DNA of 64,000 nucleotides, taken from Ptychodera flava (lineage: Eukaryota; Hemichordata; Enteropneusta; Ptychoderidae). The notes beneath the pieces are model-generated. The model saw only the letters and a list, made by a program, of their open reading frames with translations. It did not search any database and had not been told where the DNA came from. Position numbers and translations under genes: made by a program. The DNA lies in the NCBI RefSeq assembly GCF_041260155.1, contig NC_091946.1, forward strand, positions 15,892,573-15,956,572, in the 5' to 3' direction. This document shows, in pieces, positions 2,607 through 62,645 of this stretch. The stretch's first letter is position 1, and every line of letters begins with the position of its first letter.

Positions 2607-5600
2607 ATGGCGGTTAAAGGCAGTGTGGTGGCACTTCTCGTCATTTCTTCAATTTCATTTAATGTAGCGTCGTTATCCTTGGACAAGGTAAGTGAACTTC
2701 TGCAAGTACACAGTTTAAATCATTAACTCAATGGCAAAGCTTTATTTTGATAGTTTCGTATGGATCCTGAATAGTACTTCCATCTGATGCGATGAACGGC
2801 CCTTCTTCGGTCTCCTTTAGCAACTATATCAGTATTGGATTTGGTCCAGCAAAATTCCATTCATGGCGTCACTGCAGCAAACCTACAGAGGATAAATTGT
2901 TCACTATTTGTTCAACAGGCGATCGAAGCGAGCATAAAAGAAACCGATGTTTAAGAAAATGAAATTTCCAAAATCACTATAAATGACTCTAAAGCCATAG
3001 AAGTAAATTAGTATGTAAAGCTGTTTTTTGGTGTTTCGATAATAGGCTTGTGAAGAATATTCAAGAGCAAGGGTAATGATGAGTCATGTAGCTGATATTG
3101 TTACTTTGTGGATCTACCTCGATTAATTGGAATACCATTCTTCTTAAACGTCTTTTGGCCTACAGAGCTAGCTTCGTTATAAACAATGAAAGCGGTCTTT
3201 CTGTTTTTTCTTCCATTCTCCCATAAAACAACCAACCAACAATTTAAAATTCTGTCTGTTTGATCTCCCTCTCTCCGCCTCTCTCTCGCACCCCCATCCC
3301 CAACACAGGCACTACCAGAAGAGGCAGTCCAACGATATGCGAAGGCCGCAGGCTTGGATGAAGGTAAGAAAAAGTGATGTGACAATGATACTATCAGTTT
3401 CTGTTTGCTGTTTTGTTCGCTTTGATTGCCTTTGATAACAATACAGAAAGATGAGGCGTTTGGTCTTCGTCTCTATAACCCCAATAACTTCGACGAATTC
3501 TTGTCTATTATGTACTTCATAAGGTGTAAAGTGTATCTGATAGCGAAATGCCCAAAAGTTCGTCAAAAAAGTAAAGGAAATTTCAATAAAATATTTAGCT
3601 CGTGAAGGTTGTCATTTTATATTTTTCATGTTTTCGTATTAATCTACAAGGAAAGTTTTGAACATTTTTTCTTAAAACCTTCGGACAAATTTGCCAACAT
3701 CTGATTGTTATCCAAATCAGTGATTTAACCATTGCCGATCTTGTCGACTGCGCACAATTTCAGAGTGGTACAGTAACTTCTGTTCGTTGGAATGGCGCCC
3801 TATCGGGCATAATAGGTCTTACGCCAGGGAAGGAGGTGTGGGGAAAATAATATATGACTGTAAATCATGCTGATTGCATGGATTCACAAAATTGCAAAAG
3901 AGTGATACGTTTAACATAAATAAACATGTTGCCTTACAACATGTTTTCTGAGACTTTTCATCGCTATCGCTTGTGTGTCCAATCAAAACATTATGTGTGA
4001 TTTTCTGTGTTGTATTTGTCTTTTATCCTTGTATCAATTATTTGAACATATTGAATGACTTGGCAACAGCATTAGATTGCCAGCCTTCGCGCGTCTCGTA
4101 ATATAAAAAGCCCGGGAGTTGTCAACAGGCCCTGTATATCAAGCCATTTTCGACGTCTTTCTTGCCTATATTGTGTAGACATGTGTCATCTTTATGGCGT
4201 TTTGCAAATCGCTCAAAAGCAGGAAGTTCCATTTGTTCTTTATCCATGTAACTGACCTTTGCACACTGGCATTAATTTCAGGAGGAGAATATGACGTTGT
4301 CTATCCTAAATTTAGCCAACGTTGGAAAAGGGAGGCCACCGTCGATGATGATGACGTGGATGATCATGTTACAGTGACTGCATTTGGTGAAACGTACAAT
4401 TTACGCTTGAAACGAAGTGATGGTAAGTCAGTACCCTACTGTCGTTTTACTGAGCTTCATTTTGTACAGCTGTAAATCGTAACATATTTTCCCTGCATTT
4501 TCTGCATTTGGTGAAACGTACAATTTACGCTTGAAACGAAGTGATGGTAAGTCAGTACCCTACTGTCGTTTTACTGAGCTTCATTTTATACAGCTGTAAA
4601 TCGTAACATATTTTCCCAAATATTTTGCAAGTAAAAAGCATGTCGTCTTTTACTAACAATTATACGTAAGTCATGTTCAAACGCCTTGTTTCCAACGTGT
4701 CAGCACAAGTTTAATCTATATGACGGCCTTCGTGATCGTTACAGATCTAAATTCGTACAAAGGACAGGAATTCATGTGTGAACATAATAGTCGTGTATCG
4801 TACAAAATGCATTGTAGAGGGAAGGCAAAGACGTGTAACATATATTTCAACAGATATCAAGAAGAAGAAAAGATTATTGTTTCGTTGACATGTATAATGA
4901 AAATAGCATGAAAAGTTACAACCAGTGTACATATAGCAGACGTCTGTGACTATATCAAACAGTAATGATAAATAGACAGATGAGGAATCATGGGAAGATA
5001 AACGAATGTGTTACGAATCGTTTTTGCCATGTTGCTGTAAGACATGGACTCTACAACATGTGCATATGCAAATATGCATAATCACATGTATAAGCACAAA
5101 TTGTTGAGCTTATCTTCATCAAGGCTGTGGCATTTCTTGTCTTTGATATATCTGGCACTGCATTCTTAAATACCCAATGGTCCCAGCTCGTTCCCCTTTC
5201 TTTCACAGATTTCTTTGTTACGCCATTCGTGGAATACTGCGGCACTGGTGGCATTCGCTCTGACTGGTTTCCTTTTGATGCTGACAAGTCATGCTTCTAC
5301 AATGGTTACATCACTGGCGTCGAAAACTCCTTAGTTGCCGTTAAATCTTGCAACGGAGATGACGTGGTATGCAATCCGTGGATGTTTATTTTATAATTGT
5401 CACTGGAAGTGTACAAATGTGAAGCACATAGTCTCCCATCAAACCTGTTTTCCATTTCTTGCTATTCGGACATCTGATACTTGCCTCCATTTTCCTATCA
5501 TTCAAAGATCGGTAAATTGTTATAGTATGAACACAAATGTATAACTGTCTTTTAAAACAACCCGTACAATAAGCCACTTCTTCAATGCTGTGAGCTCTCA

Positions 5601-6122
5601 TTTGACTTTTTCAATTATAACTAGAATGAAGTCAACATTGTTATGTTGTCTTCCATGTAACCTGATTTCCGTTTCTTTCTATTCGTGCAACATATTTTAC
5701 ATCCGATAGCGTTTTCCTATCTTTCCAAGAATTTACATTAATTTTTTACGATGTCACGCTCGGACAAAAAATGAAGCAATTAAGTGTAATCGATGTGATA
5801 AACACATGGACAATGCTTGTGAATGCCAACACAAACAAGCGCTTGATTAAGCTGACACTAGTATTTTACGTTATTCTTGATATCACCTGTTCTTGCCTTG
5901 CCAATGGTGAAAATAGTGCATTAACCAACTTGTGTTTGGTGCATTTTTCAAAAAATAAACAATAAAACAAGACCGGTTGGTTGATTGGAAACTACACCTT
6001 ATTTCTGCATCCGTTGAAAAGCCAAGATCTGCCGGTAATCGATGGACATCCACATATAGCATTACTAGTGGAGGAGAACCCCACAGAAGAATTGTGGCAG
6101 AACGACATATTGATACCAAAAG
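2607..6122 (+). CDS. Exons 1-5: signal peptide and ADAM-type propeptide
   Basis: Exon 1 encodes a 27-residue start with a hydrophobic core ([15 protein letters not shown]) typical of a signal peptide. Exons 2-5 encode a reprolysin-family propeptide, recognisable by YDVVYPK (residues 49-55), the CFYNGYITG block and [10 protein letters not shown], all standard pieces of ADAM/ADAMTS prodomains. A furin-type motif RWKR lies at residues 59-62, and a minimal RETR site at 206-209 in exon 6, just before the catalytic domain, is the likelier activation cut. Splice phases run 0, 1, 1, 0, 1 and join without stops. Confidence 0.88.
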
Positions 6123-6977
6123 GTAATACAGATAGTTAGCGAATTTTATTCATCACAGAGCTGTGGAATTCTGAAAGCAGTATGCTGTACGTTGAATTTG
6201 GCCATAAAAGGCTCATTATATTTGATATTCCAGTGTTACAGTAAGGAACGACGATTTGTTATTTTTATATCAGGCCCCCTTCACTGTTTAACACCAATAT
6301 TATGCATACATTCTACTATAACAGAACAAGCAAAACGTGTTGCAGAGCACGAGAGGGAAACCAGAGACAATGGCAATGTTCCTCGACCTACATACGTCGA
6401 ATTGATGGTAGCGGTTGACAAAACCGCTCAGGAAAAACTTGGGAAGAACACGATACCTCACGTACTTGCAATGGTTAATATGGTGAGAGATTGTTAAAAT
6501 ACTGTGCTTCATAAAAAATGATTACTAAATGGTTTTTGACATTTGTAATTTTCTTTTTGGTCTTCATTTGCAATTTACAGCTTTATATCAAAACAGGTCC
6601 TGACTATAGTGTTTTTCTTTTACCAGCTTTATAACTCCAGCAAAGTACTCTGAAAAACTTCAAGTGCAACTCATAACATTCTTACATCCAGCTTGATGTT
6701 TGAAGTGTCCCCCCCCCCACATAGTAATATCTGAATGTTTGACATTACTTTTATTGTTGAATAAGATGGGAAGAAAAGGGTTCAATTATTGTAACAGCAA
6801 GTCTACAGCTTGAAATTTGTAATGTTTTCGGTTGATCGTAGGTTGGTACTGCTTATAAACATCCGTCGTCGAAAGATATGAACATCCATGTACGGCTTGT
6901 CAGGTTGATTCTAATTGACGATGACAAGGTATGAATTACTGTTGTCATAGAAGTTCAGTTTAGCTAACATAATGATC

Positions 6978-7069
<92 letters not shown>

Positions 7070-10000
7070 GGTGGTGGTGGTGGTGGTGGTGATAATTGAC
7101 AGAAAGCAAGGTCGTTTTACCGAATGCGTTCCTTTCAAGAAGAACAAATGATCCCAGAAAAGATGACGACGACTTTAACTGCAGTAGTAGCAGCGACAAT
7201 AACAACAACAATCATTATCACTATCATCTTTATCATCTAAGCCCATCCTTAACTCTCCGTCTTTACGATTACTTAAATAAAGTGCAAACCATATTTTAAT
7301 ATGGCGGACGATGTCTATGACCGTCTGGACAATTTTGCTGGTTGGGCGGATGCCATCAACGTTGAAGATGACGATAGTCCTTTGCACTTCGACTATGGTT
7401 TCCTTATTACTGAGTAAGTAAACAATGCGTTTATAATCTAATGTTATTTGCAAATCTTTATTTCGAAATGAACTATTAAAGTATGAAACATAACACAATA
7501 GCTAATTAACGTAGGCTTTCCATGGAAGTGTTGGTTTTAATGATGTATTCATAACTGATTAAGAAAAAGTCATGTCATCGAATGTCATAAGGTTTTTAAC
7601 GACGTCTGTAACATCCATTGTGACACTACCAAACGAAAGCAACTATAATGTGGATCAAGCATGCGCGCATAAAATAAATGTTTGCGATCTACGGTAACAC
7701 GTCATTTCATGATAATCTCACTTGCATACGAAAGTTTCCCCCAAACGTTACATGCATCTTGGCCTAAATCATCAAAGCTTGTTGAAATTATACGGAAGAT
7801 TCTTTTTTGTTGAAATAAGAAATACCATGTGTGATGTTTCCCGTTAGAAGACTTGTATTTTTGTTTCATAAACCATCCAGAAAGGACTGGGTTAATTCTG
7901 ACGTTGGTGGTCTAGCATACAGGGGAACAATGTGCGGTTATTGGGCCGTTGGCTTGTGCCCTATCAGCACCTCCGTCAGTTGCTTTGGCCATGAAATGTC
8001 GCACACGTAAGTTACTATACTTATATAAGCTATAAAAAATTAAAAAGGCCTTTTTCGCTGTTATTGATGCCGATTTTGAACTTCTTATTACAACATTTGC
8101 AAGAAATAAATGCACCTTCACATTGCAATTGCACTGCATGAAAACCCAATAATTCAGATAAATTAACATTAATGAGTTGCCTGTATTATAGTATAATACA
8201 CGTGAATTCACATGAATCCACATGAATACAGGCTTGCTGAATACAAAAAATGAATTATTGACTGTATTCATCTGTATATGCACTTTTCAGCTAAAATACA
8301 GACAATAATCCATGCTAATACAGTAAGTATTATAGGGTTTTTATGCATTGCAATTGTGCGTAATAAGTGCTTAATGAGTCACCATGTTCTTGGAACTAAA
8401 AGTAATTATCTTCGTAAAAACGATAGCAATCGTTTGTTCCGTTATTCCTAAATATAAGTAATATATGTAATATATACGTCGCTCAGGATTACTTAACCAA
8501 GAAATTCCGAGGAACAAGTCCAACTCCCATTCGGCCTAAGAGGGCGCGTTTCCATTCATGATTGTCCGTTTTCAGAAAATGAACTAATATTGTGTAATGT
8601 TCGAAGTTGCTCCTGAATGAAGATGCTCCATACATTTTACAAACCAATTAGATTGCAATGTGCATTTACCTTTCGTACAACCATCCACATATTGTACACT
8701 GTGCAAAAATCTTAGCTACTGGTAGTGTAATGCCGTAAGTTGCCACCTTTATGAACCCTATTTGACGTCTACAACCTTACACTCAGATTCACCCAATACT
8801 TGTAAAGTAAAACTTTGGTTCCCGGTTCTATCTTTATTTTTTGTGCAAAACAACATAAATAATGCAAATAATATTGTAACTGGTTTAACCTGAAAGCTAC
8901 CGCAGGCAGAGTACCTTAAAGACAAGACACATATACGTAATAATGTTTGTTTTCAATGTATCTATCCAAATTAAGTCATGATTTGTTTGCATGAGTCCTA
9001 CCAAACGATACAATCCGTTGCTTCATGCCGCCCGGAAACGGTGAGATTAGCGGATTGCACCATTGCAAGTTATAATTAGAGAATTAGGCCAAAGGTCATC
9101 CGAGATCATTTAATAAACAAACCTGGAAATAAATGAGTTCGCGTGCAAGAAAACAAAACCTGTAGCTCTATTGATTAACCTAGGACTTGATATATGCATA
9201 ACTAACGTAGAAGAGACGTTGCAATGAACTTCCCACATGAGGTGGCTTCTGTCTACGAATACTGAGGGCTCTGTCCTATTGTGATTGTTGAAATACTTGT
9301 AAAAGGTCAAATTTTGTCCAAGGTCATAAAATGTGGGATTACAGCCATCGAATCGTATCTCTTGCCCTAATGGTAAGCCTACAATTAAATGTTGGTATGC
9401 ACTCTAGACATGACATAAAGCTTGATTGGCGATTTGTCATGAAATATCACACAGTTTAAAGATAGAGTTACACTGGTCATATCTAAAATCTTATTCAATA
9501 ACGACAGACACTTAATGAATTCAAGTTTCGTTGATTCTCGCTTGAGTTGAGCGTGTAAAGATGGCAGACATCGTGAGAAATCGATTCCTGCAGAACATAT
9601 TGAAAAGAACTCGTCATGAAGTATTCTTGTTACTTTGAGAATTACCCGCAGCAATAACAAACTATTATATTAAATGATTGTAAATGGTAATGCTTATACA
9701 GTATCTTGACTTGCTACATTGCAAAGGTGCTTTTAAAATTCCAAAAAAGGGTCAATTTATACATGTCGTTTGTCCTCTATGTATCCAACGATTGAAGGCG
9801 CGTGCTATGTAACATTTGTTTTTGAGCCAGCCAGAAAGTCAAAAGGGCTAAAAGGTGCATTAAGGCTTATGATATATTAAGTATCACGGTGGCAGAAGAG
9901 TGGAGGTAATTTGTCAAGTACATCTTTCCCAGCAAAATACTGTGTTCTACGACTATAAGACAATAATCCACAATGTCAATCGCACATTTACTAGCTCGCA

Positions 10001-13000
10001 TTTAACCTAATTGAAGTAATTTGTCATGTATAGTACGAAACCTTTCTTTGAATTAACATTTAATTTATATATTTACAATAGGCTTGGCCTTAATCATGAA
10101 CTAGAGATTTGTCCTTGGTCAACCGATAAAGGTTTTCATTCTGGCGGATACTACAAATTCACGGAATGCAACAGAAATGAACTCAAAGATTACATGATGT
10201 GAGTATATAGCTATGTTGAAACCTGATCTGAAAGTACATATTCACTCATTAATTTCGAAGTCATGCGAATTTCACATGTATGTATGTATGTATGTATGTA
10301 TGTATGTATGTATGTATGTATGTATGTATGTATGTATGTATGTATGTATGTATAATAAAAGATGTCAATACTAAAAGTAATATCATAATTTTTAAAATTT
10401 ATCACAGAAAGTATCGACAACCTTCCTCGTGTTTGTACGATGAACCTTCACCACAAACTACCTTTCCATGGCCTGGGTATGGTAAAACAGAAAAAGTGAT
10501 TTCGGGAGAAGCCTTTACTCCAGACGTGCAGTGTATGGGTTATTATTATGGAAGAAGCACAGGAGAGTGTCCATGGAAAACTTTAGAAGTACAGGTATGG
10601 ACATTTCCGATGTCCCTTAATTGCCGTCAATGTAATGAGACCTTTATTTGACATTTGCAATGATCACTGAGAGGCTAGAAGGTATAGAAATAATCCAAGG
10701 TTTTGGTATGCTGCGCAATATAAAGCACGATCCGCTATGCGATTTCCATACCGATCTAACCCTACCAAGATCGAGTGGATATCCGCTTGTTGAGATGATC
10801 ATTGCTATTATTAGTCGGGTCGGAAGGTAGGGTTCCCATGCACCCCATGGATGTATTTTTTTAACCTACATTTTTGTAATCCTTAGGGTCTATATTTAAT
10901 GAATTTTGATGTTCCCAAAATCAAATCGTGTCCCATGGGTTCATTTGGCGCCATCTTTGCCGCCATCTTGGCCGCCATCTTGGATTTCAACGATGGGGTA
11001 GGGGTCACGTATCTACCGCTCGACGGAAACAGAAACAATAAAATACTATAAACGTTACATTTTTAGAAAGCCAAGATCATGGCCTTTTCATTGATATATA
11101 ACTTAATAGGGATTAATTAATATTCGAACATCGATTAGACTTTATAACGGCCATTGGCCGTAAATCGTAAAATTTGCTAAATTTCACACCCAATAATTAA
11201 GTTCCCGTTCCTCCAAACAATTTTTCATAAGGTATTTATATATTTTTTGGAAGACCTCAGTGCAATAAACAAGAAAAACAAGATTAAAAGTATGTGTCTT
11301 GAGATTTAGTGGGTGCATGAGCTTGTTTTCTTATTACGCGGTATGCCACATATCCGTGTGTAACATAAGGGTAGGGGTAATGTTTCCCTTTCTGTTTCGA
11401 ATCATGAATGATGAAACCATAAAAATGTTACATTTTTTGAAAGTGCTGCATCAGACCTTTCTAAAAATATATAGATTTATGGGGAAAAATTGCATATTTA
11501 AAAGTTACAAAGCTAAACCTTTCGGTTTGTGTCGATTTTAAGTGATTTTTTAAGAACGAAATTACAACATATGGAGTAGGGGTAATGTTTCCCTTTCTGC
11601 CTCGAGCCATGAATTACGAAACCATATAACTATTACACTGTTTGAAAGCTCTGAAATTGGCCTTCCCAAATATGTATAGTTTTATTGGGAAAAGTCCATA
11701 TTTTAAAGTTACAAAGCTTATGCCTTTCAGCTTGTGTAAATTTTAAGTGATTTTTTAAGGACGAAATTACAACATATGGGGTAGGGGTAATGTTTCCCTT
11801 TCTGCCTCGAGCCATGAATTATGAAACCATATAAATGTTATACTGTTTGAAAGCTCTGAAATGGGCCTTTCCAAACATGTATAGTTTTATTGGGAAAAGT
11901 TGCATATTTGAAAGTTACAAAGCTTAAGCCTTTCAGTTTGTGTCAATTTTAAGTGATTTTTTGAACAAAATTATAATATAAGGGGTAGGGGTAATGTTTC
12001 CCGTTCTGCCTTGAACCATGAATTATGAAACCATATAAATGTTATACTGTTTGAAAGCTCTGAAATTGGCCTTTCCAAACATGTATAGTTTTATTGGGGA
12101 AAATTGCATATTTGAAAGTTACAAAGCTTAAGCCGTGCAGTTTGTGTCAATTTTAAGTGATTTTTGAACAATATGCACAAAACAGTTAGTCCGTTGGCCA
12201 TGTATCGAAATCATCCCCTCTAAGGCATTTTACCCACTATGATTTTCTGTTAGCTAGTATTCTCAGCTGTCATAATCTGCTTATTTTCCATTTAACTGAT
12301 TGTGTGTGAGAGTGTAACGACTTGTTTGTGAAGGGCTGTCACGCCCTCAGTAGTAAAATAGGAATGGGTTAGGGGTAACATATTTACCGCTAGTCGGAAA
12401 CAAAACAAAAAGTACCATAAACAATACATTCCTAGAAAGCCCAGATATAAGCTTTTTACTTTTATGATAATTATTCGACTTTAGATGGCGCCAACATTCC
12501 GTATGTACATGGCGGTCAGCAGCTGAATCATTCACATAACGAACGTTGATATGGCCTGAAACTTCGGTAATTCATTCAAGCAAACTCTTGTTTGATTAAG
12601 TTGATAGTTTTCCTTTCTTTTTTATTTCGAGTATTTGCCATGGCATGACTGAAACGAACCTTGAAACGAAGGCTGTACGTATCTATATTAGTCCGAGCCT
12701 GAGCGTGATCTGAGAGCAAACAGATCCGCAGATAATGCGAACGATCGCAACCGTTACCAACAGACTCATTATGCAGAGCCATGCCCCAAAACGCCCAACC
12801 AAACTTGGCACTAATCATGATCCCAGTCCATTTCGAGCCGGGCTTTAAGGGAAGTGCGGTGGCCTTTGAAAGACCTTTGGTTTGGTTTTGTACCGTAGTA
12901 TAGGAAGAAAACCCGACCTGTCGTCGTTGCTATGAATGTTTGTGTTGTTTTTAGCCTCTTTTTTGCCTATTTGAAGAATCGTCTTTGCAGCCTTCCATCC

Positions 13001-16000: not shown

Positions 16001-19000
16001 ACTTTCCCCAATAAAACTATACATGTTTGGAAAGGCCAATTTCAGAGCTTTCAAACAGTATAACATTTATATGGTTTCATAATTCATGGTTCAAGGCAGA
16101 ACGGGAAACATTACCCCAACCTTTATATTATAATTTTGTTTAAAAAATCACTGAAAATTGACACAAACTGAAAGGCATAAGCTTTGTAACTTTAAAATAT
16201 TGACTTTTCACAATAAAACTATACATGTTTGGAAAGGCCCTTTCAGAGCTTTCAAACAGTATAACATTTATATGGTTTCATAATTCATAAATCGAGGCAG
16301 AAAGGGAAACATTACCCTACCCCATATGTTGTAATTTCGTTACTAAAAAATGACTAAAAAATTGATACAAACTGAAAGATTTAAGCTTTGTAACTACAAA
16401 ATATGGACTTTTCCCAATGAAACTATACATGTTTGGAAAGGCCAATTTCAGAGCTTTCAAACGGTATAACATTTATATGGTTTCATAATCCATGGTTCAA
16501 GGCAGAAAGGGAAACATTACCCCTACCCCATATGTTGTAATTTCGTCCTTAAAAAATCACTTAAAGTTGACACAAGCTGAAAGGCATAAGCTTTGTAACT
16601 TTAAAATATGGACTTTTCCCAATAAAACTATACATGTTTGGAAAGGCCAATTTCAGAGCTTTCAAACAGTATAACATTTATATGGTTTCATAATTCATGG
16701 TTCAAGGCAGAACGGGAAACATTACCCCAACCTTTATATTATAATTTTGTTTAAAAAATCACTTAAAATTGACACAAACTGAAAGGCATAAGCTTGTAAC
16801 TTTAAAATATGGACATTTCCCAATTAAACTATACATGTTTGGAAAGGCCCATTTCAGAGCTTTCAAACAGTATAACATTTATATGGTTTCATAATTCATA
16901 AATCGAGGCAGAAAGGGAAACATTACCCCTACCCCATATGTTGTAATTTCGTTACTAAAAAATGACTAAAAATTGATACAAACTGAAAGATTTAAGCTTT
17001 GTAACTACAAAATATGGACTTTTCCCAATGAAACTATACATGTTTGGAAAGGCCAATTCAGAGCTTTCAAACTGTATAACATTTATATGGTTTCATAATC
17101 CATGGTTCAAGGCAGAAAGGGAAACATTACCCCTACCCATATGTTGTAATTTCGTCCTTAAAAAATCACTTAAAGTTGACACAAGCTGAAAGGCATAAGC
17201 TTTGTAACTTTAAAATTATATGGACTTTTCCCAATAAAACTATACATGTTTGAAAAGGCCAATTTCAGCGCTTTCAAACTTTATAACATTTATATGGTTT
17301 CATAATTCATGGTTCAAGGCAGAACGGGAAACATTACCCCAACCTTTATATTATAATTTTGTTTAAAAAATCACTTAAAATTGACACAAACTGAAAGGCA
17401 TAAGCTTTGTAACTTTAAAATATGGACATTTCCCAATTAAACTATACATGTTTGGAAAGGCCAATTTCAGAGTATTCAAACAGTATAACATTTATATGGT
17501 TTCATAATCCATGGTTCAAGCAGAAAGGGAAACATTACCCCTACCCCATATGTTGTAATTTCGTCCTTAAAAAATCACTTCAGGTTGACACAAGCTGAAA
17601 GGCATAAGCTTTGTAACTTTAAAATATGGACTTTTCCCAATAAAACTATACATGTTTGGGAAGGCCAATTTCAGAGCTTTCAAACAGTGTAACATTTATA
17701 TGGTTTCGTAATTCATGGCTCGAGGCAGAAAGGGAAACATTACCCCTACCCCATATGTTGTAATTTCGTTCTTAAAAAATCACTTAAAATCGACACAAAC
17801 CGAAAGGTTTAAGCTTTGTAACTTTTAAATATGCAATTTTTCCCCATAAATCTATATATTTTTAGAAAGGCCTGATGCAGCACTTTCAAAAAATGTAACA
17901 TTTTTATGGTTTCATCATTCATGATTCGAAACAGAAAGGGAAACATTACCCCTACCCCTTATGTTACACACGGATATGTGGCATACCGCGTAATAAGAAA
18001 ACAAGCTCATGCACCCACTAAATCTCAAGACACATACTTTTAATCTTGTTTTTCTTGTTTATTGTACTGAGGTCTTCCAAAAAATATATAAATACCTTAC
18101 GAAAAATTGTTTGGAGGAACGGGAACTTAATTATTGGGTGTGAAATTTAGCAAATTTACGATTTACGGCCAATGGCCGTTATAAAGTCTAATCGATGTTC
18201 GAATATTAATTAATCCCTATTAAGTTATATATCAATGAAAAGGCCATGATCTTGGCTTTCTAAAAATGTAACGTTTATAGTATTTTATTGTTTCTGTTTC
18301 CGTCGAGCGGTAGATACGTGACCCCTACCCCATTGTTGAAATCCAAGATGGCGGCCAAGATGGCGGCAAAGATGGCGCCAAATGAAACCCATGGGACACT
18401 ATTTGATTTTGGGAACATCAAAATTCATTTAATATAGACCCTAAGGATTACAAAAATGTAGGTTAAAAAAATACATCCATAGGGTGCATGGGAACCCTAC
18501 CTTCCGACTAGACTATATCTTACATAAAAATATATTCTTATGGTATTTTAATTTGGTTTTCTCCAGACTGTTAACAACGTAAAGATAAGGTAGATTTAAA
18601 AATTCAGTTTAACTTGAGCCCAGAGCAGAGCACTTTATACGCATTCTCGGCAGAGTCATTGGAAATAGAGTAGATGCCAAAATGTGCTAATTTTCGTTTG
18701 GCGATGCCCGAACAAAAGGCTCCAATATCACAATTTTACAATATTTTTTTCTTTCAAGTTTACTGTCATTACGTTGCTTTGCAAATGATTCCTGTGTTTT
18801 TAATTATTGCATTTTAAGAACCTCAGTTTTTCTCCAAATGCCCCTTGATTCGGCGTCGAAACAAGTGTCATTCTGTGCCACTTGAAGGATCTTTTTCAGC
18901 GTTGGAATATCCTTGTTTTGTCAGTGCGCATGCGTAAGTTCTCGACCAATCAGAATGATGCATTGACATGTTGTCTCTATAAAATAATGATAATCTAGAT

Positions 19001-19984
19001 AATAGTAGATTTGTTTACCTATTGTAGGCAAGGCGTCCCCTGCAATAGAAATAAATTATCCCGATGTCCGATTTGTAATACATGAACGACATGTTTGTCA
19101 ACATCCAAATGTTACATTCTGAAATTAAACATAAGCGTTGATTTATTCGACAGAAGATAGACGGAAAAGAATATTAATTATGAACTTTAACGGCGCGTTA
19201 TGAGCAATGAATACGTCAACAGTAGCCGTAATAATGATCGAAGCGCAGTGAGTGAACATCATAGTATGGCGGTCCCTGATTTTGGATATATATAGTGACA
19301 TTTTCATTCGATTTAGCAGCATTTCTAACTAGCTGTGCATCGGAAAATTATTCTTCGTACGCGACTCATTTGCTCGACATAAGTTTTAAAATTCAAGGTT
19401 GAATATTAACCTTTCAATATTGTTTTCTTCCTTCCAAGTACTGGAATATGTTACATTCATATACTCAAGTGAAGATCGATTCACAAAAGATAGCAAGTGC
19501 ATAGAACAGCGTAGGTCCCCTGATTCAGAGCGTAATTCGTAAAAACACGGTCTTTACAACACTTAATTAGATGACCGTTTACAAGCTTGATATTATTGCA
19601 TGTTAATTTTCAGAACCTTAATTTTGGCGAAGAATGTCAATTGTACTGTGAAATGACAGATGGTTCCTGTGAACACTGGGGTAAGGCCATTGAAGGCACA
19701 CCTTGTGGACGTGGAAAGGTAACGCTGTGGCCGCATATTTCAAATATGGTTTACAATACATTTTAAGAAAAGCGTGGTTTTATTTTATCGTAAGATGACA
19801 AAAAATGGAGCAAGTGCTGGATAAATGACACAAGTTTCGAGCGCTCTAAATATCAAATACACCTTTAAATCTGACTTGAAAGATTATGTGAAAATGAATG
19901 TTCCTTTGTAGATGTAATTATTGTAATTTGCTTGAGCCCCGATGAAAATTACTGTACAAGTAACTCGGCCGCTCAATAAAAGTG

Positions 19985-20016
<32 letters not shown>

Positions 20017-23000
20017 AAATAAATAAATAAATAAATAATAAATATCAAATGCCCCTGCCATTTCTATTGGTAAGCAGTTTTTAAGGGTTAGTAGCTCTAA
20101 CTTTTGATGATTTTTTTACAGTACTTGTTTTCCTTTTGTCTGTCTATTGCAAATTCTTCTCCTTCTCCCCAAAGCATGTGAATACACATAAGGTTTAACT
20201 CGTAAACCCAAAATTCACTTGACTATTAGCAGCGACAATGCACTTCACACATGTACAGGCTTAGGCAACAAGCTGAACACGGTGAATCCCAACATGCTTT
20301 GGGTGTAGAATAAGAAAGTTACTGTAGTTGATATTTATCACAAAGAAGGTGAAACAATTGAAAAGAGTTACGTACAAAACACCTTCTAAGCAGCCCTTTA
20401 GAATTCGAACTTGTTGCTTCGTTTTAAAGGTCAACTCTTAACCTGTCTTCCAATGTGACATGCAAATTTCTTCCAGCATGCTTGCAATGGTTTCGTTGCC
20501 TCAACAAATTATGACATTGATCGATTGAGTAGTCTGAGTCGAAAAATGTGAGTGACAAGACTGCACGTCTGTACTGTGGCGAAGAAATTTTCCATCAATA
20601 TTATGCTAAAATCTATATCTGTACTACTTCAAATTGTCGTTCATTCTCCTTCTTAGTCTTGTTTAGGTGACATCTGCACATGCGTTGATCAGACATTCTG
20701 TTCATCAACTGGGATAGGTGAGTATCAACTGCTGACATTACTTGTTTCCAATCATAGGAATCGTCAAAGTTGCCTAACTTCACTTTCATCTTTCCTTGGT
20801 TGAATAAAGTATGGAATAATGGCTTCGTGTAAATTTTGCTGGAAAAAATATTAAGTCACAAACCTGGTTAGCGTATCCCAATTCAAATATAACTCATCAA
20901 TTCTGTAAAATTATACTTATAGATCTGTTTATTATGAACCCAGTTACTGTAGTTTAATGGCAAAAACACGGAACGTTACATATGGCGCAATGACGGTGTA
21001 ACATGCAGTTGGATTACCACAAAATGTTCGAGATGAGAAGCCTAACAACCTGCATATTAACTTATAAGAGGAAAAACAGCAATAAACATATACACAGAGT
21101 TGCAAAGAGAAAGTGGCGAATTTGGGATTTGGATATTTCGACCCTTTGCATCACAATAGGGCTGCAAAAATCGATAAAGAATAATCGCGATTTCAGTCAT
21201 TTCGCCTTGGCTTGCGCGCGACACGAATGACTGGTGCACTGATAAGGTTTGACAACACCAACAAGAATCGGATGTGGTTTTAAGCCTATTTAGACGTTCA
21301 CAGTGGAGACAAGGAAGGCAGATTTACTGTCGAGAAATTGGGGACTTTAATTCTGAGACCTAAGTTTGATATATTAAAACAATGCAACAAAAGCGTAAGC
21401 GGCCTCTTTTTTTAAGCATAATTGTTCTCTATAATTTGCGTTTCCGCCCCAATATAAAATACGCCTTTGGGACAGATACATGTATTTAGATTGGCAAATG
21501 TTTACAATACTGTCTGCTCCACCGCTTGTGTGCTCTTAGAGTGAAATATGTTTTCACCGTCTTAGCCTTGTAAAAATTCAATTTTTGCACACAGAGTTAA
21601 TACAGGGATTGCAGCCATTTTGAAAATCAAGTATTGGTAAATTTAATTCCGTTCCATTGTACCAAGATTCGCATGATGGCGGTGGGTTTTCTTCTTGATT
21701 TTTAAAGTGAATTATGGTTGAAAGTGTCGTCTAGGAAAGTTTAGACAAAAGTCAATGTTAAGTCTTTCAATTTCGAGGCGTGTACTAACTTTATGGATAT
21801 CAGCAACCTTATAAGAGTAAAGGATAAAGTATTGACCGTCTATTGCAAAAATATGCCTCCTTATCTCCATTATTTTCCATCACCGTCAAATTATTTCCAG
21901 GTTCCAGGCCTAAAAACATCAACTACATGCCGTCAGTGTTTGAAGCAGACCGTGACACCGCGGTTCAAATCTGTAACAGCCAGCAAGGCTCGTTGGCAAA
22001 AATACTCAACAAGGACACGTACGACCACTTGATAGGTGTCATTTCAACCCATCATCAGAGGAACAACCGGTTTCATTTCGACGGAAGGCGCTTTTCGTAC
22101 ATTGGAAACGACTGGAGGACACTGAATGGAGAAAGGTTAGCTTTCTTCACGTGGGAACATGGGGAGCCGAACAATCGTGATGGCAATGAAGAGTGTTTGT
22201 ATCTCTGGTAAAAGTTTGAAATTTTACGCAAAAATCAAAAATCAAATCTGTTATTAACTTCTAACGGCTATAAAAAGGCAACAACTATTAGAGTCATAAC
22301 TACAGACTTGTGTGACGTGATGATCGATGATCGGGACTGTGTACGCTACAAAGACAGAATAACATTTATATGTCAATACATAATTATGTATTTCTTCACT
22401 TCGTTACATACACATTTCACATTCCTGTTTGTTCAAAATCTCAAATAATGTCACACAGAAACTGATCACTACTGTTTTCTTCATGTCAGGGAGGAAGTAA
22501 TGAATTTTTCCGACTACGCATGTAACAGTAACGCACATTACATTTGTCAGAAAGGTAACGTACGACTCGTCGTTTCAATATCACGATCGATCCAGGGAGC
22601 AGCTGTTCATCTCTACTAGAGATTTCCTTAATACTAGTACTTTCAAAGGAATTTGCTCACATTTATATTGTCCAAACAAATGATCCTACTGATGTGCAGC
22701 GCGCTCAGAAGGTTATATCTGATTGGTCGATTGTCACTAGTCACATCAACATAGGGAGTCTTTTTGTATTATTCAATAACAACTCTATGATTCAGCCACC
22801 CTATAACAGCTTCCGAGACTCCGCACATTAGCAAATGATCTGCTTGAGTGGAAGTTTACAAAGTGTTCGATTTTAAAATGTTTACTATTAATGAGCTTGA
22901 AATTAATATGTCATTGGCAGAGTTTATTTAGTAAAACTAACGTAACAAGGAGTGGCCGTTTTAATGAAATATACGGACGTGGTTAAAGGTAGGGCCTCAG

Positions 23001-26000
23001 GAAAAAAGCTTTCGAATTGACAATATTTTTACATTTGTGCGTACTCTTTGTGAAGCCTTTGGAATAAATGAAATGTTTTCATTTGAAAATCGAACATTTA
23101 TTTTCCTCTCACAGAGTTCATAGGAAATATCGATCATTTGAATTGGTAAATTATAGGTATTTTATTCTCTAGTTCCAAACATGGTACAGTATGTTGACAC
23201 TGTATATATTCTAGATTATGAGAGACATTGGGGAAAGTTAGTTTAAGAGAAAATTAAAGCGTAAGACGTTCTGTTACGATTTTTACACTGCCCATTTCGT
23301 GTTCATTGTGATGTTTCTTGAGTGACTTTCAATGATGAAATGACTTCTAATGATGAAATTGTTAACAGCACAATGTGACGAAACGCATAGCAACGATTTA
23401 GGGAGTGTCGCTTGGGTTTGTCTTATTTTCCTTTTGATTCTTACAGACGGCAAGGGGGAATGTTTTACCGAGGCATTGGCAAACGACTATCGAGGTATGA
23501 AATCAACCACTAAGCAAGGTTACACATGTCTTAAATGGACAGAACACTCATATCCTAAGACTCCTGAAGCGTTTCCAAATCGTGGACTTGGCGATCACAA
23601 TTACTGCCGTAACCCTGATGTCGACTCTGGTGGCGCTTGGTGCTACATTTCCGGCGGAAGTATACACTATGATTACTGTGACGTTGGTCAACCTCAACAG
23701 ACGTGTGGTGAGTGTAAATAATTGTCATATGTGATTATGTCTCCATTTGCTATGTAATCATTGTGACGTATTTATTCGATGTATCAAAGCATCCCAGCAT
23801 TGTCCTCTGCCTCAATCGTTTGCACCCTGTCCCACTGTGAATGTACACATGTACACGTGGATTAACTAGGGGTCAGAGTTCAATTGGTTAAAGTCAGATT
23901 TCTATTTAACAGGTGGAAAAGACGAATGTTACCAAGATGCCAATGGATATGATTATCGAGGTAAACTTTCACAGACCATAAGTGGTCACACCTGTCAGAA
24001 GTGGACCGCCCAGACACCACAACAGCATTATAGTACACCTGAAAATTATCCGAATCGGGGTATTGGAGACCATAACTATTGCCGAAATCCAGACAACGGA
24101 GATGTAGGTCCTTGGTGCTTCACGGTCGATGGCCCGAGATGGAAGCATTGTGACGTTGGCAAGCCAGGAGATTGCGGTAGGAGACTCAATATAAACTGAT
24201 CAATTTTTACATATCAACTACTAGAATATTACTTTAAAGGGTATTGATCTGTCGATGTACTCCGAGTCGTTGACGAAAACATGTTATTACATAAGTCAGC
24301 CGATGGTTACTGTCACAGCTCACGCTTGATTTCACACGAGGTACAGATTCGCAATTGGTGAGTCGATATATACCCGATATTTTATAAACCAGAAGACAAG
24401 TTTTAACTGGACTTTTCTGTAAATGTAAACAATCGCATTTATTAAGACCTGTTTCAGTCAGGTCGCTTCGATACGATTTATTAAAATAAAATAATGAAAT
24501 GTTTGCTTCATTTACAGAAAAACTTGGTCAAAACATGCACGGGAAGATGGTACGGCTTGGGGAAACATCCACACTGGTATCGACAAAACCTTTCTTGGAC
24601 AGCATCTCTGAAATTACGGTGTCATTCTGGGTAAGAAGTTCCGGTAGTGACTCTGGTTTGCCTTTCATGTATTCCTCCCCAACCATTCAAGATGAATTCA
24701 GTGTTCGTAGTATCGGCTCTATGCACATGTACGTACATGGGATAGCTGGTGGAGCCTCTTACTGTGGTGTAAACGACGGTTTTTGGCATCACGTGACTGT
24801 GACGTGGCAGAGTTTGGGTGGTGATTTTCAATTTTTCAAAGATGGCATTATGGTCTCTTCGGGTGCCGACTTGGCAAAGGGGTTTCAAATAGAAGCTGGG
24901 GGAATACTAGTTATTGGCCGTGGCCAATTAAGAATGGGCGATGCTTTACCTTACAATTACATAGAAGGCGAGATGACAAGCTTCAATGCTTGGAACAGAA
25001 AACTGACGGCCGAGGAAATCCAGATTTCGGCAAGGTCATGTGATGGTTCTATGACTGGCAATTTGATATCCTGGAGCAGTTACGATCTTGGTGTTCAGCT
25101 GTCGGCCCCAGGTAGTTTACCTATCGAAAAGGCCGATACATGCGGTAAAGTATCTATATTTAGCAAATAAACAGCTCAGAACAATATTCAATGATAGTTT
25201 TTGACAAGCATAGATAAAGTTTGACACGAATGACGAATAGGATTATGCAATCAGCATTGTGGTCATAGACCTTGACCATATTACAATTTTCGTTACATGT
25301 TTTAAGGTAATATAACAATTATAGAACAGGTTGCTTGAAGCAATGTAAACACATTTTGAAACGGAATGTAATATTTCATTATCGGTTAGGTAACCATTTT
25401 GTATTTTCCATCAGCTGGACAGTATCTTTAATCCCTTCATCACAATTACGCAGACTTTGATTGCAACTTCTATTACTCCTCCCGGAAACGCAAAAAGCAC
25501 GTCTGTATTTCATGAGATAAAGTTACATAAATAAGGGTAACTAAGCTTCCTATGTATTATCATCCACATTTACGTAAAAGTATTATCTTGGAATCGATTA
25601 ATATTTGTATGCTTATTCTTGCAACAATTTTAAAAAATGTATTGATAGCTTTCGTTTATAGGTTAAATGTTATTTGGAGGACGCATTTTCATATTTTTTA
25701 TATATGCAGCATGGACTAGTCTAGAGAACTTAAAATATGTAAATTAACCTGATATAAAAGAAATTATTCCTTTGCCTTACAGAAGATCTATTGTCTCGCT
25801 TAGACTGGAAAATGATCATGTTCAGTGGCGACATTACCGTCGAGAGCTTCACCACTATTCCTAAGCTGACACAACTAACTGCATGCTTTTGGTTACAATC
25901 AACCTACTCCAATGGAGGATGGTTCACCTACCAAACACGAGGGCAGTACGCGATGGCGTTGTGGTATGATACCCAATTAATGGTGCAGAGCGGCCACTGG

Positions 26001-26360
26001 AATGATGTTTCGACCACTGTAAATGACGGCAAATGGCATCACTTGTGTGTCACGTGGACGTCAGCTGGCGAGTGGCAGGTCTTCAAAGATGGTGTCAAAG
26101 CTTCGAATGGCGCAGGACATGGCACTGGATTCGAATTGGCAGCCGGTGGCAGGTTCATTCTGGGTGCCTATGGGGACTACGGAGTCAAAGGCAACATGGC
26201 GTTCTTCAATGTTTGGGACCGTGTAATGACCGACGGAGAAGTCACTGCTGTAAAGAATGCTTGCGATGGCAATTACGAGGGTAACGTCTTGTCTTGGAAA
26301 CGCGGCATTAAATCTCCTCCTAGTCAATACACAGCAAGCGTGAACCTTTGTGTTATTTAG
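2607..26360 (+). CDS. Secreted ADAMTS-like metalloprotease with C-type lectin, two kringle and two pentraxin domains
   Basis: Twenty exons join in a single frame (3663 nt, about 1220 residues): 2607-2687, 3309-3363, 4282-4422, 5209-5366, 5972-6122, 6325-6482, 6842-6928, 7283-7413, 7881-8006, 10082-10198, 10408-10594, 19614-19718, 20477-20489, 20667-20717, 21901-22207, 22490-22554, 23447-23707, 23913-24176, 24518-25144, 25783-26360. Domain order: signal peptide (1-~24), propeptide (~25-209), reprolysin-type zinc protease (~219-402), disintegrin-like/Cys-rich region (~403-520), C-type lectin (521-644), kringles (650-731, 737-819), pentraxins (820-1028, 1029-1220). The start ATG has a good context (GACATGG) and opens a signal peptide. 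No thrombospondin repeat is present, unlike true ADAMTS enzymes. Expected role: a secreted protease that binds carbohydrate and other ligands through its C-terminal modules; substrate unknown. Least certain are exon 8 (weak acceptor) and the 13-nt exon 13. Confidence 0.88.
4378..4617. repeat. Recent 124-bp tandem duplication across an exon end
   Basis: Bases 4378-4493 recur at 4502-4617 (offset 124) with about one mismatch. The copied segment holds the last 45 coding bases of exon 3, its GTAAGT donor and part of the intron. The second copy lacks its own acceptor, so it should be spliced out unless the second donor is used. If read through to that donor, the reading frame meets stops in the spacer (TAA within CTGTAAATC). 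Confidence 0.93.
6325..10198 (+). CDS. Exons 6-10: reprolysin-type zinc metalloprotease domain
   Basis: The domain opens with YVELMVAVD (residues 219-227), the usual first strand of ADAM proteases. Exon 9 gives GLAYRGTMC and ends inside the zinc site. Joined with exon 10 this reads HEMSHTLGLNHE, so the three zinc ligands (H358, H362, H368) and the catalytic E359 are present. The methionine of the Met-turn, normally about 15-25 residues further on, is not seen: residues 370-400 contain none, and the region before Cys392 is shorter than in ADAMTS enzymes. Exon 8 (7283-7413) uses an acceptor with a poor pyrimidine tract. Exons 9 and 10 are separated by a 2-kb intron (8007-10081) in which I see nothing. 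Confidence 0.88.
6970..7092. repeat. Trinucleotide microsatellite (ATG)n-(GGT)n in intron 7
   Basis: A pure ATG run followed by a GGT run covers about 120 bp, some 190 bp before exon 8 of the metalloprotease gene. The His, Ile and Met homopolymer frames it creates are artefacts. Confidence 0.97.
10275..10353. repeat. (TATG)n microsatellite in intron 10
   Basis: About 19 tandem copies of a TATG tetranucleotide lie about 55 bp before exon 11 of the metalloprotease gene, close enough to length-modulate that small intron (10199-10407). Confidence 0.97.
10408..20717 (+). CDS. Exons 11-14: disintegrin-like / cysteine-rich region
   Basis: Exon 11 encodes the tail of the catalytic domain (CLYDEP) and an ADAMTS-like segment ([13 protein letters not shown]). 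Exon 12 gives FGEECQLYC and GTPCGRGK, close in spacing to the ADAMTS disintegrin-like consensus (QLWC ... GTPCG). Exon 13 is either a 13-nt microexon (20477-20489) giving HACNG, or a longer exon ending at the stronger donor at 20548; only the short form keeps frame with exon 14 ([11 protein letters not shown]). Exon 14 is a 51-nt phase 1-1 exon rich in cysteine. Exons 11 and 12 are separated by a 9-kb intron holding the foldback element at 10819-18508. Confidence 0.75.
10947..10983. promoter_or_regulatory. Three clustered YY1-like motifs in the left arm
   Basis: Three near-tandem copies of the GCCGCCATCTT type (reverse of AAGATGGCGGC, the YY1 consensus; the outermost copy is GGCGCCATCTT) lie here. 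The mirror copy is at 18343-18379 in the right arm. Inference: the arms could bind YY1 or a similar zinc-finger factor. Confidence 0.5.
11371..12175. repeat. ~205-bp tandem repeats in the left arm, four copies
   Basis: The block GTAGGGGTAATGTTTCCC recurs at about 11371, 11576, 11781 and 11985, a period of about 205 bp. Each unit also holds a conserved ATATAAATGTTA...CTGTTTGAAAGCTCTG segment. These are the inverted counterparts of the right-arm array at 15930-17960. Confidence 0.93.
12480..15350 (-). pseudogene. Centre of the foldback element: decayed coding sequence, unidentified
   Basis: The minus strand shows several protein-like stretches broken by stops and frameshifts. The best is 12845-13252 (135 codons, extending further upstream without a Met); others lie near 14050-14220 and 14340-14580. 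I recognise no transposase, polymerase or capsid motif. The stretches may be remains of the element's own proteins or captured sequence. No function is assigned. Confidence 0.35.
15355..15780. repeat. Second, diverged terminal-arm copy inside the element
   Basis: This segment parallels the outer right arm (17945-18340) in the same order: AAACATTACCC, ATATATAAATACCTT, GTTTGGAGGAAC, TTAATTATTGGGT, CTAATCGATGTT, TTTCTAA.AATGTA and GTTTCCG.CTAGCGG. It is clearly more diverged than the arms are from each other. This suggests nested insertion or internal duplication of arm sequence. Confidence 0.7.
15930..17960. repeat. ~204-bp tandem repeats in the right arm with higher-order pattern, ten copies
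   Basis: GGGAAACATTACCC recurs at about 16103, 16304, 16509, 16713, 16916, 17120, 17327, 17528, 17734 and 17938. Three unit types can be told apart: A (AACGGGAAAC...CCAACCTTTATATT), B (AAATCGAGG...GTTACTAAAAAATGAC) and C (CATGGTTCAAGG...TTTCGTCCTTAAAAAATC). They run A-B-C, A-B-C, A-C, then two more units, so a ~610-bp higher-order unit has been duplicated. Confidence 0.88.
18343..18379. promoter_or_regulatory. Three clustered YY1-like motifs in the right arm
   Basis: AAGATGGCGGC appears twice and AAGATGGCGCC once within 37 bp, the inverted counterpart of 10947-10983. The high identity of this cluster between arms may reflect the low age of the element or selection for factor binding. Confidence 0.5.
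18509..19613. other. Rest of intron 11, nothing coding seen
   Basis: This sequence lies between the foldback element and exon 12. A TGCGCATGCG palindrome (NRF1-like) with a CCAAT box close by occurs at about 18925-18955, but no transcript start is supported. Confidence 0.5.
19983..20043. repeat. (AAAT)n microsatellite in intron 12
   Basis: About 15 copies of an AAAT/TAAA tetranucleotide with two small interruptions lie between exons 12 and 13. Confidence 0.95.
21455..21792 (+). mobile_element. ~340-bp MITE family copy (diverged) in intron 14
   Basis: It starts near ACGCCTTTGGGACAG and ends near TTTCGAGGCGTGTACTAACT, with internal landmarks GTTTTCACCGTCTTAG, CAGGGATTGCAGCCATTTTGAA and ATGGTTGAAAGT shared with copies at 40062-40410, 46104-46444 and 46615-46970. 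The ends are imperfect inverted repeats around GCGCCTCG. No coding capacity. Confidence 0.75.
21901..22554 (+). CDS. Exons 15-16: C-type lectin domain
   Basis: Two exons encode a C-type lectin-like domain of about 124 residues (521-644). It has the four canonical cysteines (C545, C619, C634, C642), a WEHGEPN segment with the EPN motif at 609-611 that marks mannose-type calcium/sugar sites, and the closing HYICQK. The usual WND motif is replaced by FSD, so calcium-dependent sugar binding is plausible but not assured. The domain is bounded by phase-1 introns on both sides, and the internal intron splits a Trp codon. Confidence 0.92.
23447..23707 (+). CDS. Exon 17: kringle domain 1
   Basis: One 261-nt phase 1-1 exon encodes a full kringle. 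The six cysteines are at residues 650, 672, 698, 710, 722 and 731, with the typical blocks [25 protein letters not shown] and AWCY. Kringles mediate binding to lysine residues or other protein ligands in extracellular proteins such as plasminogen and ROR receptors. The one-exon, phase 1-1 layout makes it a mobile module. Confidence 0.95.
23913..24176 (+). CDS. Exon 18: kringle domain 2
   Basis: A second phase 1-1 exon (264 nt) encodes another complete kringle, with cysteines at residues 737, 759, 788, 800, 811 and 819 and the blocks [25 protein letters not shown] and PWCF. It lies about 205 bp after kringle 1 and shares its organisation, so the pair probably arose by tandem exon duplication, although the two are clearly diverged. 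Confidence 0.95.
24518..25144 (+). CDS. Exon 19: pentraxin-like domain 1
   Basis: A single 627-nt phase 1-1 exon encodes a ~209-residue pentraxin/LamG-fold domain. The stretch HVTVTWQS at residues 911-918 aligns with the pentraxin signature HxCx(S/T)WxS except that the cysteine is Thr. FFKDG, a Gly-rich strand and [13 protein letters not shown] follow in the usual order. The missing signature cysteine suggests that the conserved disulfide is absent or moved (a nearby YC at 901-902 could substitute). Confidence 0.9.
25783..26360 (+). CDS. Exon 20: pentraxin-like domain 2 and stop
   Basis: The last exon encodes a second pentraxin domain and the TAG stop (26358-26360). HLCVTWTS at residues 1115-1122 matches the pentraxin signature HxCx(S/T)WxS exactly, and VFKDG and [13 protein letters not shown] follow as in family members. 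The protein ends about 15 residues after the domain with no membrane segment, consistent with secretion. Confidence 0.92.
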
Positions 26361-45200: not shown

Positions 45201-45587
45201 AGTGTATTATAATTGGGCGTTAGCCTGTGGGATGACGGATTGAATAAATACAAAATGTAAAAAATACCCTGAAAATCCAGTCTCTTGTCTGCTATGTGGA
45301 TAATAAGAGAATTTCTATCTCATTACTATATACTGAGAGTATAGTATGACCAAACATTTACCCTAACGTTATAGATGTCGTCCGATTACGTGATGTCGAT
45401 GATAAACTGTCTGTTCTTTTACACATGCGTGTGAAACATGAACACTCATTGCCTTTCTTGTTTCCCAACAGGCGTTGTTGGAGATTGGAGAAACCGCTTC
45501 ACCGTGGCTCAAAATGAGGCCTTCGAGAAATACTACTATGGACGAATGAAGGAGCTTGGAATCGATCACCTGAATTACACATTTTAA
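39271..45587 (+). CDS. Cytosolic sulfotransferase (SULT family)
   Basis: Six exons (39271-39430, 40592-40851, 42145-42268, 43503-43597, 44504-44675, 45472-45587) join to 308 codons, the usual SULT length. The enzyme transfers sulfate from PAPS to hydroxyl or amine groups of small acceptors in the cytosol. The PAPS 5'-phosphosulfate loop reads TYPKAGTNW (49-57), where TYPKSGTTW is common. The catalytic histidine is H124 in VPTHLLPKY. The 3'-phosphate site is RNPKDCLVS (R146, S154), with the same 22-residue spacing from the histidine as in SULT1A1. RKGVVGDWRNRFTVAQNE near the C-terminus (from R269) is the second PAPS signature and dimer region. There is no signal peptide or membrane segment. 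Acceptor substrate cannot be told. Introns hold MITE copies and a SINE. Confidence 0.95.
39598..39835 (+). mobile_element. MITE family copy, partial and diverged
   Basis: CACCTCGGGGACAGATATTCGGACTCTCAAAC matches the start of the copies at 46615 and 40062 in outline, followed by CTAGTGTAGTGGCTAATTTTGAAG, ACATAGGGAT and GCATAGTGCCCCCTGGTTTTTATT. The right terminus is lost. Confidence 0.55.
40062..40410 (+). mobile_element. ~350-bp MITE family copy in sulfotransferase intron 1
   Basis: The copy runs from ACACGCCTTAGGGATTTCGG to TCAAGGCGCACACTACCTA, with GATGGCGGCCATTTTGAATT in the centre. The order of landmarks is the same as at 46615-46970. Confidence 0.8.
40912..41110 (+). repeat. Dispersed 'GGTACTCC' repeat fragment
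   Basis: The GAGGGGAGGTACTCCAATTC start, followed by ATACGTGCCG and several AAATAGGGGTAT / AAATGGGGTT blocks, resembles a dispersed repeat common in marine invertebrate genomes as I remember it. A related AAATAGGGTATCATTTTG stretch lies at 44100-44165. Identification is from memory only. Confidence 0.4.
45035..45262 (+). mobile_element. tRNA-derived SINE in sulfotransferase intron 5
   Basis: Two box-B-like segments (GTTCAAGACC near 45083 and GTTCGAGACT near 45137) are followed by TGCCCTTGAGCAAGGCACTT, which resembles a conserved central domain found in several metazoan SINE superfamilies. A short A/T-rich tail ends the element. It is in the same orientation as the gene. Confidence 0.7.
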
Positions 45588-61338: not shown

Positions 61339-61343
61339 TTTTT

Positions 61344-61361
61344 TGGTGCCGAGACCAGGAT
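61344..61361 (+). other. Putative primer-binding site
   Basis: TGGTGCCGAGACC directly follows the putative LTR and resembles the TGGTGCCGAAACC-type primer sites seen in BEL/Pao elements. The matching tRNA was not checked. Confidence 0.5.
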
Positions 61362-61365
61362 AAGG

Positions 61366-62640: not shown

Positions 62641-62645
62641 GGAAA

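Follow-up and report, generated by a model that had tools for sequence, protein, structure and literature searches.

Does the stretch of the Ptychodera flava genome in which a metalloprotease is followed by a lectin domain, kringles and pentraxin-like domains encode one secreted protein or two adjoining genes, and what might such a protein do? We addressed this in a window of 64,000 nucleotides of contig NC_091946.1 (positions 15,892,573 to 15,956,572, forward strand), to which all coordinates below refer.

A gene of 19 coding exons

With the exon chain rebuilt from splice signals and phase, 19 exons between positions 2607 and 26360 of the forward strand were joined into one open reading frame of 1219 residues and a stop codon (Table 1). 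The product is letter-for-letter identical to P0001, an "uncharacterized protein" of Ptychodera flava in NCBI/UniRef, in which a signal-like start is followed by an M12B propeptide, a reprolysin domain, an ADAMTS-type disintegrin-like domain, a C-type lectin domain (CTLD), two kringles and two pentraxins. The signal peptide is putative and was assigned from hydropathy, the hydrophobic segment of exon 1 having an 11-residue peak of 2.6.

Table 1. Exons of the P0001 gene and one exon-like piece, in window coordinates
Feature	Position	Strand	Residues	Content	Basis
Exon 1	2607-2687	+	1-27	Start codon and hydrophobic signal-peptide-like segment	P0001 identity, hydropathy
Exon 2	3309-3363	+	28-46	Propeptide start	P0001 identity
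Exon 3	4282-4422	+	46-93	Propeptide	P0001 identity; Pep_M12B_propep 57-127 (below cut-off)
Exon 4	5209-5366	+	93-145	Propeptide	P0001 identity; Pep_M12B_propep 57-127 (below cut-off)
Exon 5	5972-6122	+	146-196	Propeptide	P0001 identity
Exon 6	6325-6482	+	196-248	Propeptide end, catalytic domain start	Reprolysin 219-415
Exon 7	6842-6928	+	249-277	Catalytic domain	P0001 identity, Pfam
Exon 8	7283-7413	+	278-321	Catalytic domain	P0001 identity, Pfam
Exon 9	7881-8006	+	321-363	Catalytic domain with HEMSH	H358, E359 and H362 invariant in alignment
Exon 10	10082-10198	+	363-402	Rest of the zinc site, GLNH (H368); from residue 380, Met-turn region GFHSGG	
Exon 11	10408-10594	+	402-464	ADAMTS-type disintegrin-like/cysteine-rich domain, part 1	ADAMTS_CR_2 435-506 (below cut-off); collinearity with ADAMTS-13 and -5
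Exon 12	19614-19718	+	465-499	ADAMTS-type domain, part 2	P0001 identity, Pfam
Exon 13	20657-20717	+	500-520	Final cysteines of the ADAMTS-type domain (C501, C506, C508) and lectin linker; phase 0 in, 1 out	
Exon 14	21901-22207	+	520-622	C-type lectin domain with EPN	Lectin_C 539-643
Exon 15	22490-22554	+	622-644	C-type lectin domain end	P0001 identity, Pfam
Exon 16	23447-23707	+	644-731	Kringle 1, single exon, phase 1-1	
Exon 17	23913-24176	+	731-819	Kringle 2, single exon, phase 1-1	
Exon 18	24518-25144	+	819-1028	Pentraxin-like domain 1, single exon, phase 1-1	
Exon 19	25783-26360	+	1028-1219 and stop	Pentraxin-like domain 2	
Exon-like piece	20477-20547	+		Splice signals present; outside the annotated protein	

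The coordinates and the single spliced frame of the original prediction were recovered, but it had counted 20 exons where there are 19 coding ones; its twentieth was probably the exon-like piece at 20477-20547. The 20-exon chain was rejected because the good GTGAGT donor of this piece leaves phase 2 where exon 13, entered at 20657, requires phase 0; because the seven in-frame joins found that include it all run through other internal donors judged poor; and because it is skipped by P0001 and no such insert is present in the aligned relatives (P0002 and P0003 of the same species and P0095 of Saccoglossus kowalevskii). An isoform joining 20547 to a second acceptor at 21908 would keep the frame and may exist.

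Two repeats lie within the gene. A direct duplication of 116 bp, its copies 99% identical (4378-4493 and 4502-4617), takes in the last part of exon 3 together with the donor site. Intron 11 contains an inverted repeat, probably a large transposable element, with arms of ~1.36 kb (10812-12168 and 17158-18515) that are 96% identical, hold internal repeated units and lie ~5 kb apart.

Relatives of P0001 are found in hemichordates

Ptychodera flava has three proteins of the family. P0002, 80% identical to P0001 over 1229 aligned columns, keeps the whole domain order, and P0003, which is N-terminally short (75% identity over 883), keeps it from P0001 residue 338 on, just before the zinc site. P0095 (LOC144360991, uncharacterized), from another hemichordate family, keeps the order through pentraxin 1, with 41% identity in alignment and with 38 of 39 cysteines retained as far as residue 1027; Pfam returned neither the propeptide nor ADAMTS_CR_2 in this protein at E <=0.01, and both parts rest there on the alignment. 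Where P0001 has pentraxin 2, P0095 has a PAN domain and a second CTLD. The match between the two proteins reaches the cysteine just before the exon 18/19 boundary, identity in 20-residue steps being 10/20, 8/20, 8/19, 7/20, 7/20 and 6/20 over residues 908-1027 and 3/20, 4/20, 4/19, 2/18 and 3/20 over 1028-1127; as identity shows no sharp drop, the point of divergence was set where the conserved residues end and the modules change.

A search with residues 46-520 of P0001 returned four proteins among 2351 candidates (P0001, P0002, P0095 and P0003), and a profile search with the protease half returned five among 6750, namely the same four and P0096 of Glandiceps talaboti. All five proteins recovered by the protease-half searches are from hemichordates. 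The full-length query scored 7990 candidates sharing most words and gave at least 94 proteins, with a kringle domain in 94/94 of the matches listed; reprolysin and kringle occur together, among the matches listed, only in P0001, P0002 and Branchiostoma P0091. These searches need shared five-residue words and lengths of 0.55-1.75 times the query, and it is within these limits that the domain order, for which a search of other proteomes had been proposed, was recovered in hemichordates only.

Three further observations concern individual family members. Residues 1-176 of P0002 form an N-terminal extension ahead of a normal signal-peptide-like start; it is absent in aligned relatives and is possibly a gene-model fusion. 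Kringle 1 (P0001 residues 644-731) is identical to that of P0002 at 86 of 88 positions, the propeptide, catalytic, cysteine-rich, lectin, kringle 2 and pentraxin parts being 76-85% identical, which suggests recent gene conversion or constraint at the level of the exon. A similar cysteine-rich stretch ending in C-x-D-Y was seen by eye beside other modules in P0095 (1030-1080) and in P0091 (585-634).

Domains, catalytic site and ligand sites

The joined protein was searched against Pfam, where the domains that had been predicted from the DNA were borne out, the propeptide and ADAMTS_CR_2 at sub-threshold level in P0001. Above the cut-offs are Kringle (PF00051, two stretches, E 1.1e-35), Lectin_C (4.6e-8) and Reprolysin (PF01421, 8.1e-12; 46.0 bits against a cut-off of 20.8), and the two pentraxin parts are each matched by both Laminin_G_3 (3.4e-27) and, less strongly, Pentaxin (PF00354, 7.2e-20). 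Pep_M12B_propep scores 22.5 bits, below its cut-off of 23.7, and passes with 24.1 when the 522-residue protease half is searched alone. ADAMTS_CR_2 (cut-off 27.3) stays below threshold in P0001 and P0002 (19.1 bits each) and in P0096 (22.0) and passes in P0003 (28.5). The disintegrin-like region is present, though of the ADAMTS kind; among the families reported for P0001 the ADAM/snake Disintegrin model does not appear. Two pentraxin domains were likewise found, of which only the second has the Cys of the pentraxin signature H-x-C-x-x-W: pentraxin 2 reads HLCVTWTS and pentraxin 1 HVTVTWQS. The expected lack of thrombospondin repeats after the disintegrin-like region was upheld, as Pfam returned no thrombospondin family at E <=0.1 in either half, nor at E <=0.01 in P0001, P0002 and P0095. 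No spacer family was reported in the Pfam searches of both halves, P0001, P0002 and P0095, no trypsin-type serine protease domain in those of the halves and P0001, and no NCBIfam family for P0001 or P0002 at E <=0.01.

The zinc site reads HEMSHTLGLNH in P0001, in agreement with the predicted HExxHxxGxxH. In M12B proteases an Asp after the third zinc His and a methionine at the Met-turn are expected. P0001, P0002 and P0003 have Glu after the third His where P0095 and P0096 have Asp. At the Met-turn, P0001 and P0002 have His, P0003 Gln and P0095 Val; only P0096 has Met (GFMSGG). In the alignment with ADAMTS-5 the Met-turn Met stands opposite the His of P0002, a tentative correspondence, since ADAMTS-13 has this Met in an unaligned insert. 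Profile and zinc site mark P0001 as an M12B-type protease, with two common features altered in Ptychodera flava. Structures predicted from alignments of five were too poor to use (mean pLDDT 31.2 for P0096 and 35.7 for P0003, 883 residues).

To the tail we applied the ligand-site definitions of kringles, lectins and pentraxins. Mannose-type C-type lectins combine the EPN motif with WND; EPN is present in 4/4 proteins compared, and the place of WND is taken by FSD in P0001, P0002 and P0003 and by LND in P0095. By inspection, kringle 1 keeps a plasminogen-like Asp-x-Asp in P0001, P0002 and P0003, not in P0095, and in kringle 2 the standard Asp-x-Asp spacing is not kept. Opposite the EQD of neuronal pentraxins, pentraxin 1 reads GQL in P0001 and GQD in P0002, P0003 and P0095, and it is without the full calcium set; pentraxin 2 is without the calcium-site loop. 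The ligand sites of the CTLD, the pentraxins and the second kringle thus look partly degraded, and binding is plausible while the ligand cannot be read off the sequence.

History of the modules and other genes in the window

The five introns between tail modules (13/14, 15/16, 16/17, 17/18 and 18/19) are all in phase 1, and the one within the lectin (14/15) is in phase 2; the kringles and pentraxins have one exon apiece and the lectin has two. Symmetrical phase-1 modules, together with a change at such an intron, are a classic signature of exon shuffling. Because the tail modules are bounded by phase-1 introns, the lectin, kringles and pentraxin-like domains would most simply have been gained in this way. 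Glandiceps talaboti P0004, with four kringle and five pentraxin stretches, presents another arrangement of the same modules.

Elsewhere in the window, a sulfotransferase-like gene lies at ~39271-45587 (+; ends set by eye), two of its ORF pieces matching Sulfotransfer_1 (6.9e-8 and 3.7e-7). Pieces of a carboxylesterase-type gene lie at 50692-55235 (-; COesterase, 5.6e-17 and 2e-24), where the ORF 50692-51276 (-) terminates by eye in a hydrophobic stretch. Retrotransposon pieces, presumably of the BEL/Pao kind, occupy 61324-63999 (+; DUF1759 8.1e-39, and an RVT_1 match below cut-off).

One gene or two, and its possible function

We consider it highly probable that the protease and the lectin-kringle-pentraxin tail belong to a single gene. 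The order through pentraxin 1 in Saccoglossus is independent support for this, identity between P0001 and P0095 runs unbroken over the protease-lectin junction (10/20, 9/20, 8/20, 7/20 and 14/20 in 20-residue steps over 460-559), and the exon 13 passage, with C501, C506, C508 and the lectin linker, is present in P0002, P0003 and P0095. That gene prediction fused two adjoining genes, the first for an ADAMTS-like protease with its end near exon 12/13, the second for a lectin-kringle-pentraxin protein, is a case that the original prediction had itself raised and one that the annotation of Glandiceps talaboti appears to present, the halves being there two proteins, P0096 (513 residues, protease) and P0004 (1337 residues, kringles and pentraxins only). 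The 9-kb intron between exons 11 and 12, with its large inverted repeat, also points that way, and the tail half may have its own separate start: among the ATG starts that stay open for at least 18 codons in 10595-21900, six have a hydrophobic start (peak >2.2), the nearest at 21382. However, P0096 breaks off at the equivalent of the exon 12 boundary (..GTPCGPGK), short of the final cysteines of its domain; the three residues that follow, VLV, look like intron read-through. P0004 opens with kringle 1 and has neither a CTLD nor an evident signal peptide. As the contig given for each has 32312036 bases, they probably lie on the same one, and the pair, from a third hemichordate family, is probably a split gene model. 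With four proteins of two species joined over the junction and the linker exon conserved between those species, a fusion of two genes in Ptychodera flava strikes us as very improbable.

As to function, we lean modestly towards an overall account in which this single-gene architecture serves a docking-and-cutting mechanism; the mechanism taken by itself is proposed tentatively, at a little short of even confidence. The product would be secreted as a zymogen, and its propeptide would be removed at basic sites (RWKR and RLKR occur in P0001; RHRKR stands ahead of the catalytic domain in P0002 and is absent from P0001). The tail, whose kringle 1 carries the plasminogen-like Asp-x-Asp, would dock the enzyme on glycans or proteins, and the catalytic domain would cleave nearby extracellular targets in mucus, coelomic fluid or matrix. 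Judged from the sequence, such a recognition-protease function is plausible, and catalysis is not assured, given the Glu after the third zinc His and the replaced Met-turn Met of the Ptychodera flava proteins. The same replacements (His, Gln or Val at the Met-turn in all but P0096, and Glu for Asp in three proteins) would suit a pseudoprotease whose metalloprotease domain is a scaffold and which acts by binding only. Metzincins with a substituted Met-turn can nevertheless stay active, HExxHxxGxxH with the catalytic Glu is kept in 5/5 family proteins and the Glandiceps protein retains both Met and Asp, and we regard a pseudoprotease as improbable. An enzyme of matrix or ADAMTS-type tissue remodelling, with a tail that only anchors it to structural matrix and no role in defence or clotting, is a real possibility, if a less than even one: ADAMTS-5 and ADAMTS-13 are the solved structures closest to the core, and ADAMTS enzymes are described in a passage of PMC10381214 as acting mostly on matrix, but the tail modules differ from the ADAMTS set of thrombospondin repeats and spacer. 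It seems rather unlikely to us that these proteins amount to a hemichordate recognition-protease family, an ADAMTS-type chassis aimed by a lectin-kringle-pentraxin cassette and performing the target-directed cleavage that in vertebrates falls to clotting, fibrinolytic or complement proteases of the trypsin type; the final modules of the cassette differ between species across a phase-1 intron (P0001 against P0095, exon 18/19). If the enzyme docks and cuts as proposed, targeted extracellular proteolysis would have a testable route that needs no serine protease; as a matrix enzyme, it would still record module swapping inside one phylum.

Comparison with known systems

The architecture had been put forward as apparently undescribed. 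P0001 is already in NCBI/UniRef, uncharacterized; of its domain order, no description was found in the open-access journal literature searched, and the available parts of PMC11175523, PMC9643190, PMC9848320, PMC6337849, PMC4349717 and PMC10381214 give no account of it. For Ptychodera flava, PMC11175523 reports PacBio Iso-seq and Illumina reads that cover 16 stages.

Among solved structures the core is followed, behind ADAMTS-5 and ADAMTS-13, by ADAMTS-4 and -1. It shares with the ADAMTS enzymes a propeptide, an M12B catalytic domain and an ADAMTS-type disintegrin-like domain in the same order, the alignments with ADAMTS-5 and ADAMTS-13 being collinear through the catalytic and disintegrin-like domains (~290 residues for ADAMTS-13). 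It differs from them in carrying a CTLD, kringles and pentraxins, and in that the Ptychodera flava proteins keep neither the methionine of the Met-turn nor the Asp that follows the zinc site. A passage of PMC4349717 gives as ADAMTS features the propeptide, M12B domain, disintegrin-like domain, thrombospondin type-1 repeat and spacer. The first three were found in the family and the last two were not; since the thrombospondin repeat and the spacer, both defining, were looked for and not found, P0001 was not filed as an ADAMTS proper, though it may act like one.

Kringles and pentraxins had been described in the original prediction as otherwise belonging to coagulation and innate-immune proteins. 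Their association with metalloproteases is not new, having a precedent in the astacins, whose ancillary domains, according to a figure legend in PMC9848320, include C-type lectin, kringle, PAN and pentraxin. Astacins are secreted zymogen metzincins, as P0001 is predicted to be, and resemble it in the C-type lectin, kringle and pentraxin modules reported for them (PMC9848320, same legend). They differ in the astacin catalytic domain, which stands in place of the M12B/reprolysin and ADAMTS-type domains of P0001. This precedent for lectin, kringle and pentraxin modules (PMC9848320, legend) tempers the significance of the tail. Branchiostoma P0091 (LOC144903755) is likewise an M12B protease bearing a kringle; it has an ADAM-type Disintegrin domain (below cut-off), CUB and WSC, a single kringle and no CTLD or pentraxin, and its best alignment covers 6% of the query.

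The kringles are closest in sequence to those of plasminogen, HGF and apolipoprotein(a), their nearest solved structures being plasminogen, angiostatin and HGF, but plasminogen-type proteins have a trypsin-type domain where P0001 has a metalloprotease. Among solved pentraxin domains, those of neuronal pentraxins 2 and 1 come closest (NPTX2 at E 4.8e-24 with domain 1 and 2.6e-21 with domain 2); P0001 differs from them in the calcium-site loop, of which domain 1 has an incomplete version and domain 2 none. These kringle and pentraxin parts do not make P0001 a plasminogen or a pentraxin. The lectin is nearest, among solved structures, to mosGCTL-1, to an N-acetylglucosamine-specific lectin and to codakine. 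Each part is of a known kind and the protease class is known; what is new is the joining of an ADAMTS-like core to a lectin-kringle-pentraxin tail. In a deuterostome phylum other than the chordates, that core has been recombined with modules otherwise linked to fibrinolysis and innate recognition.
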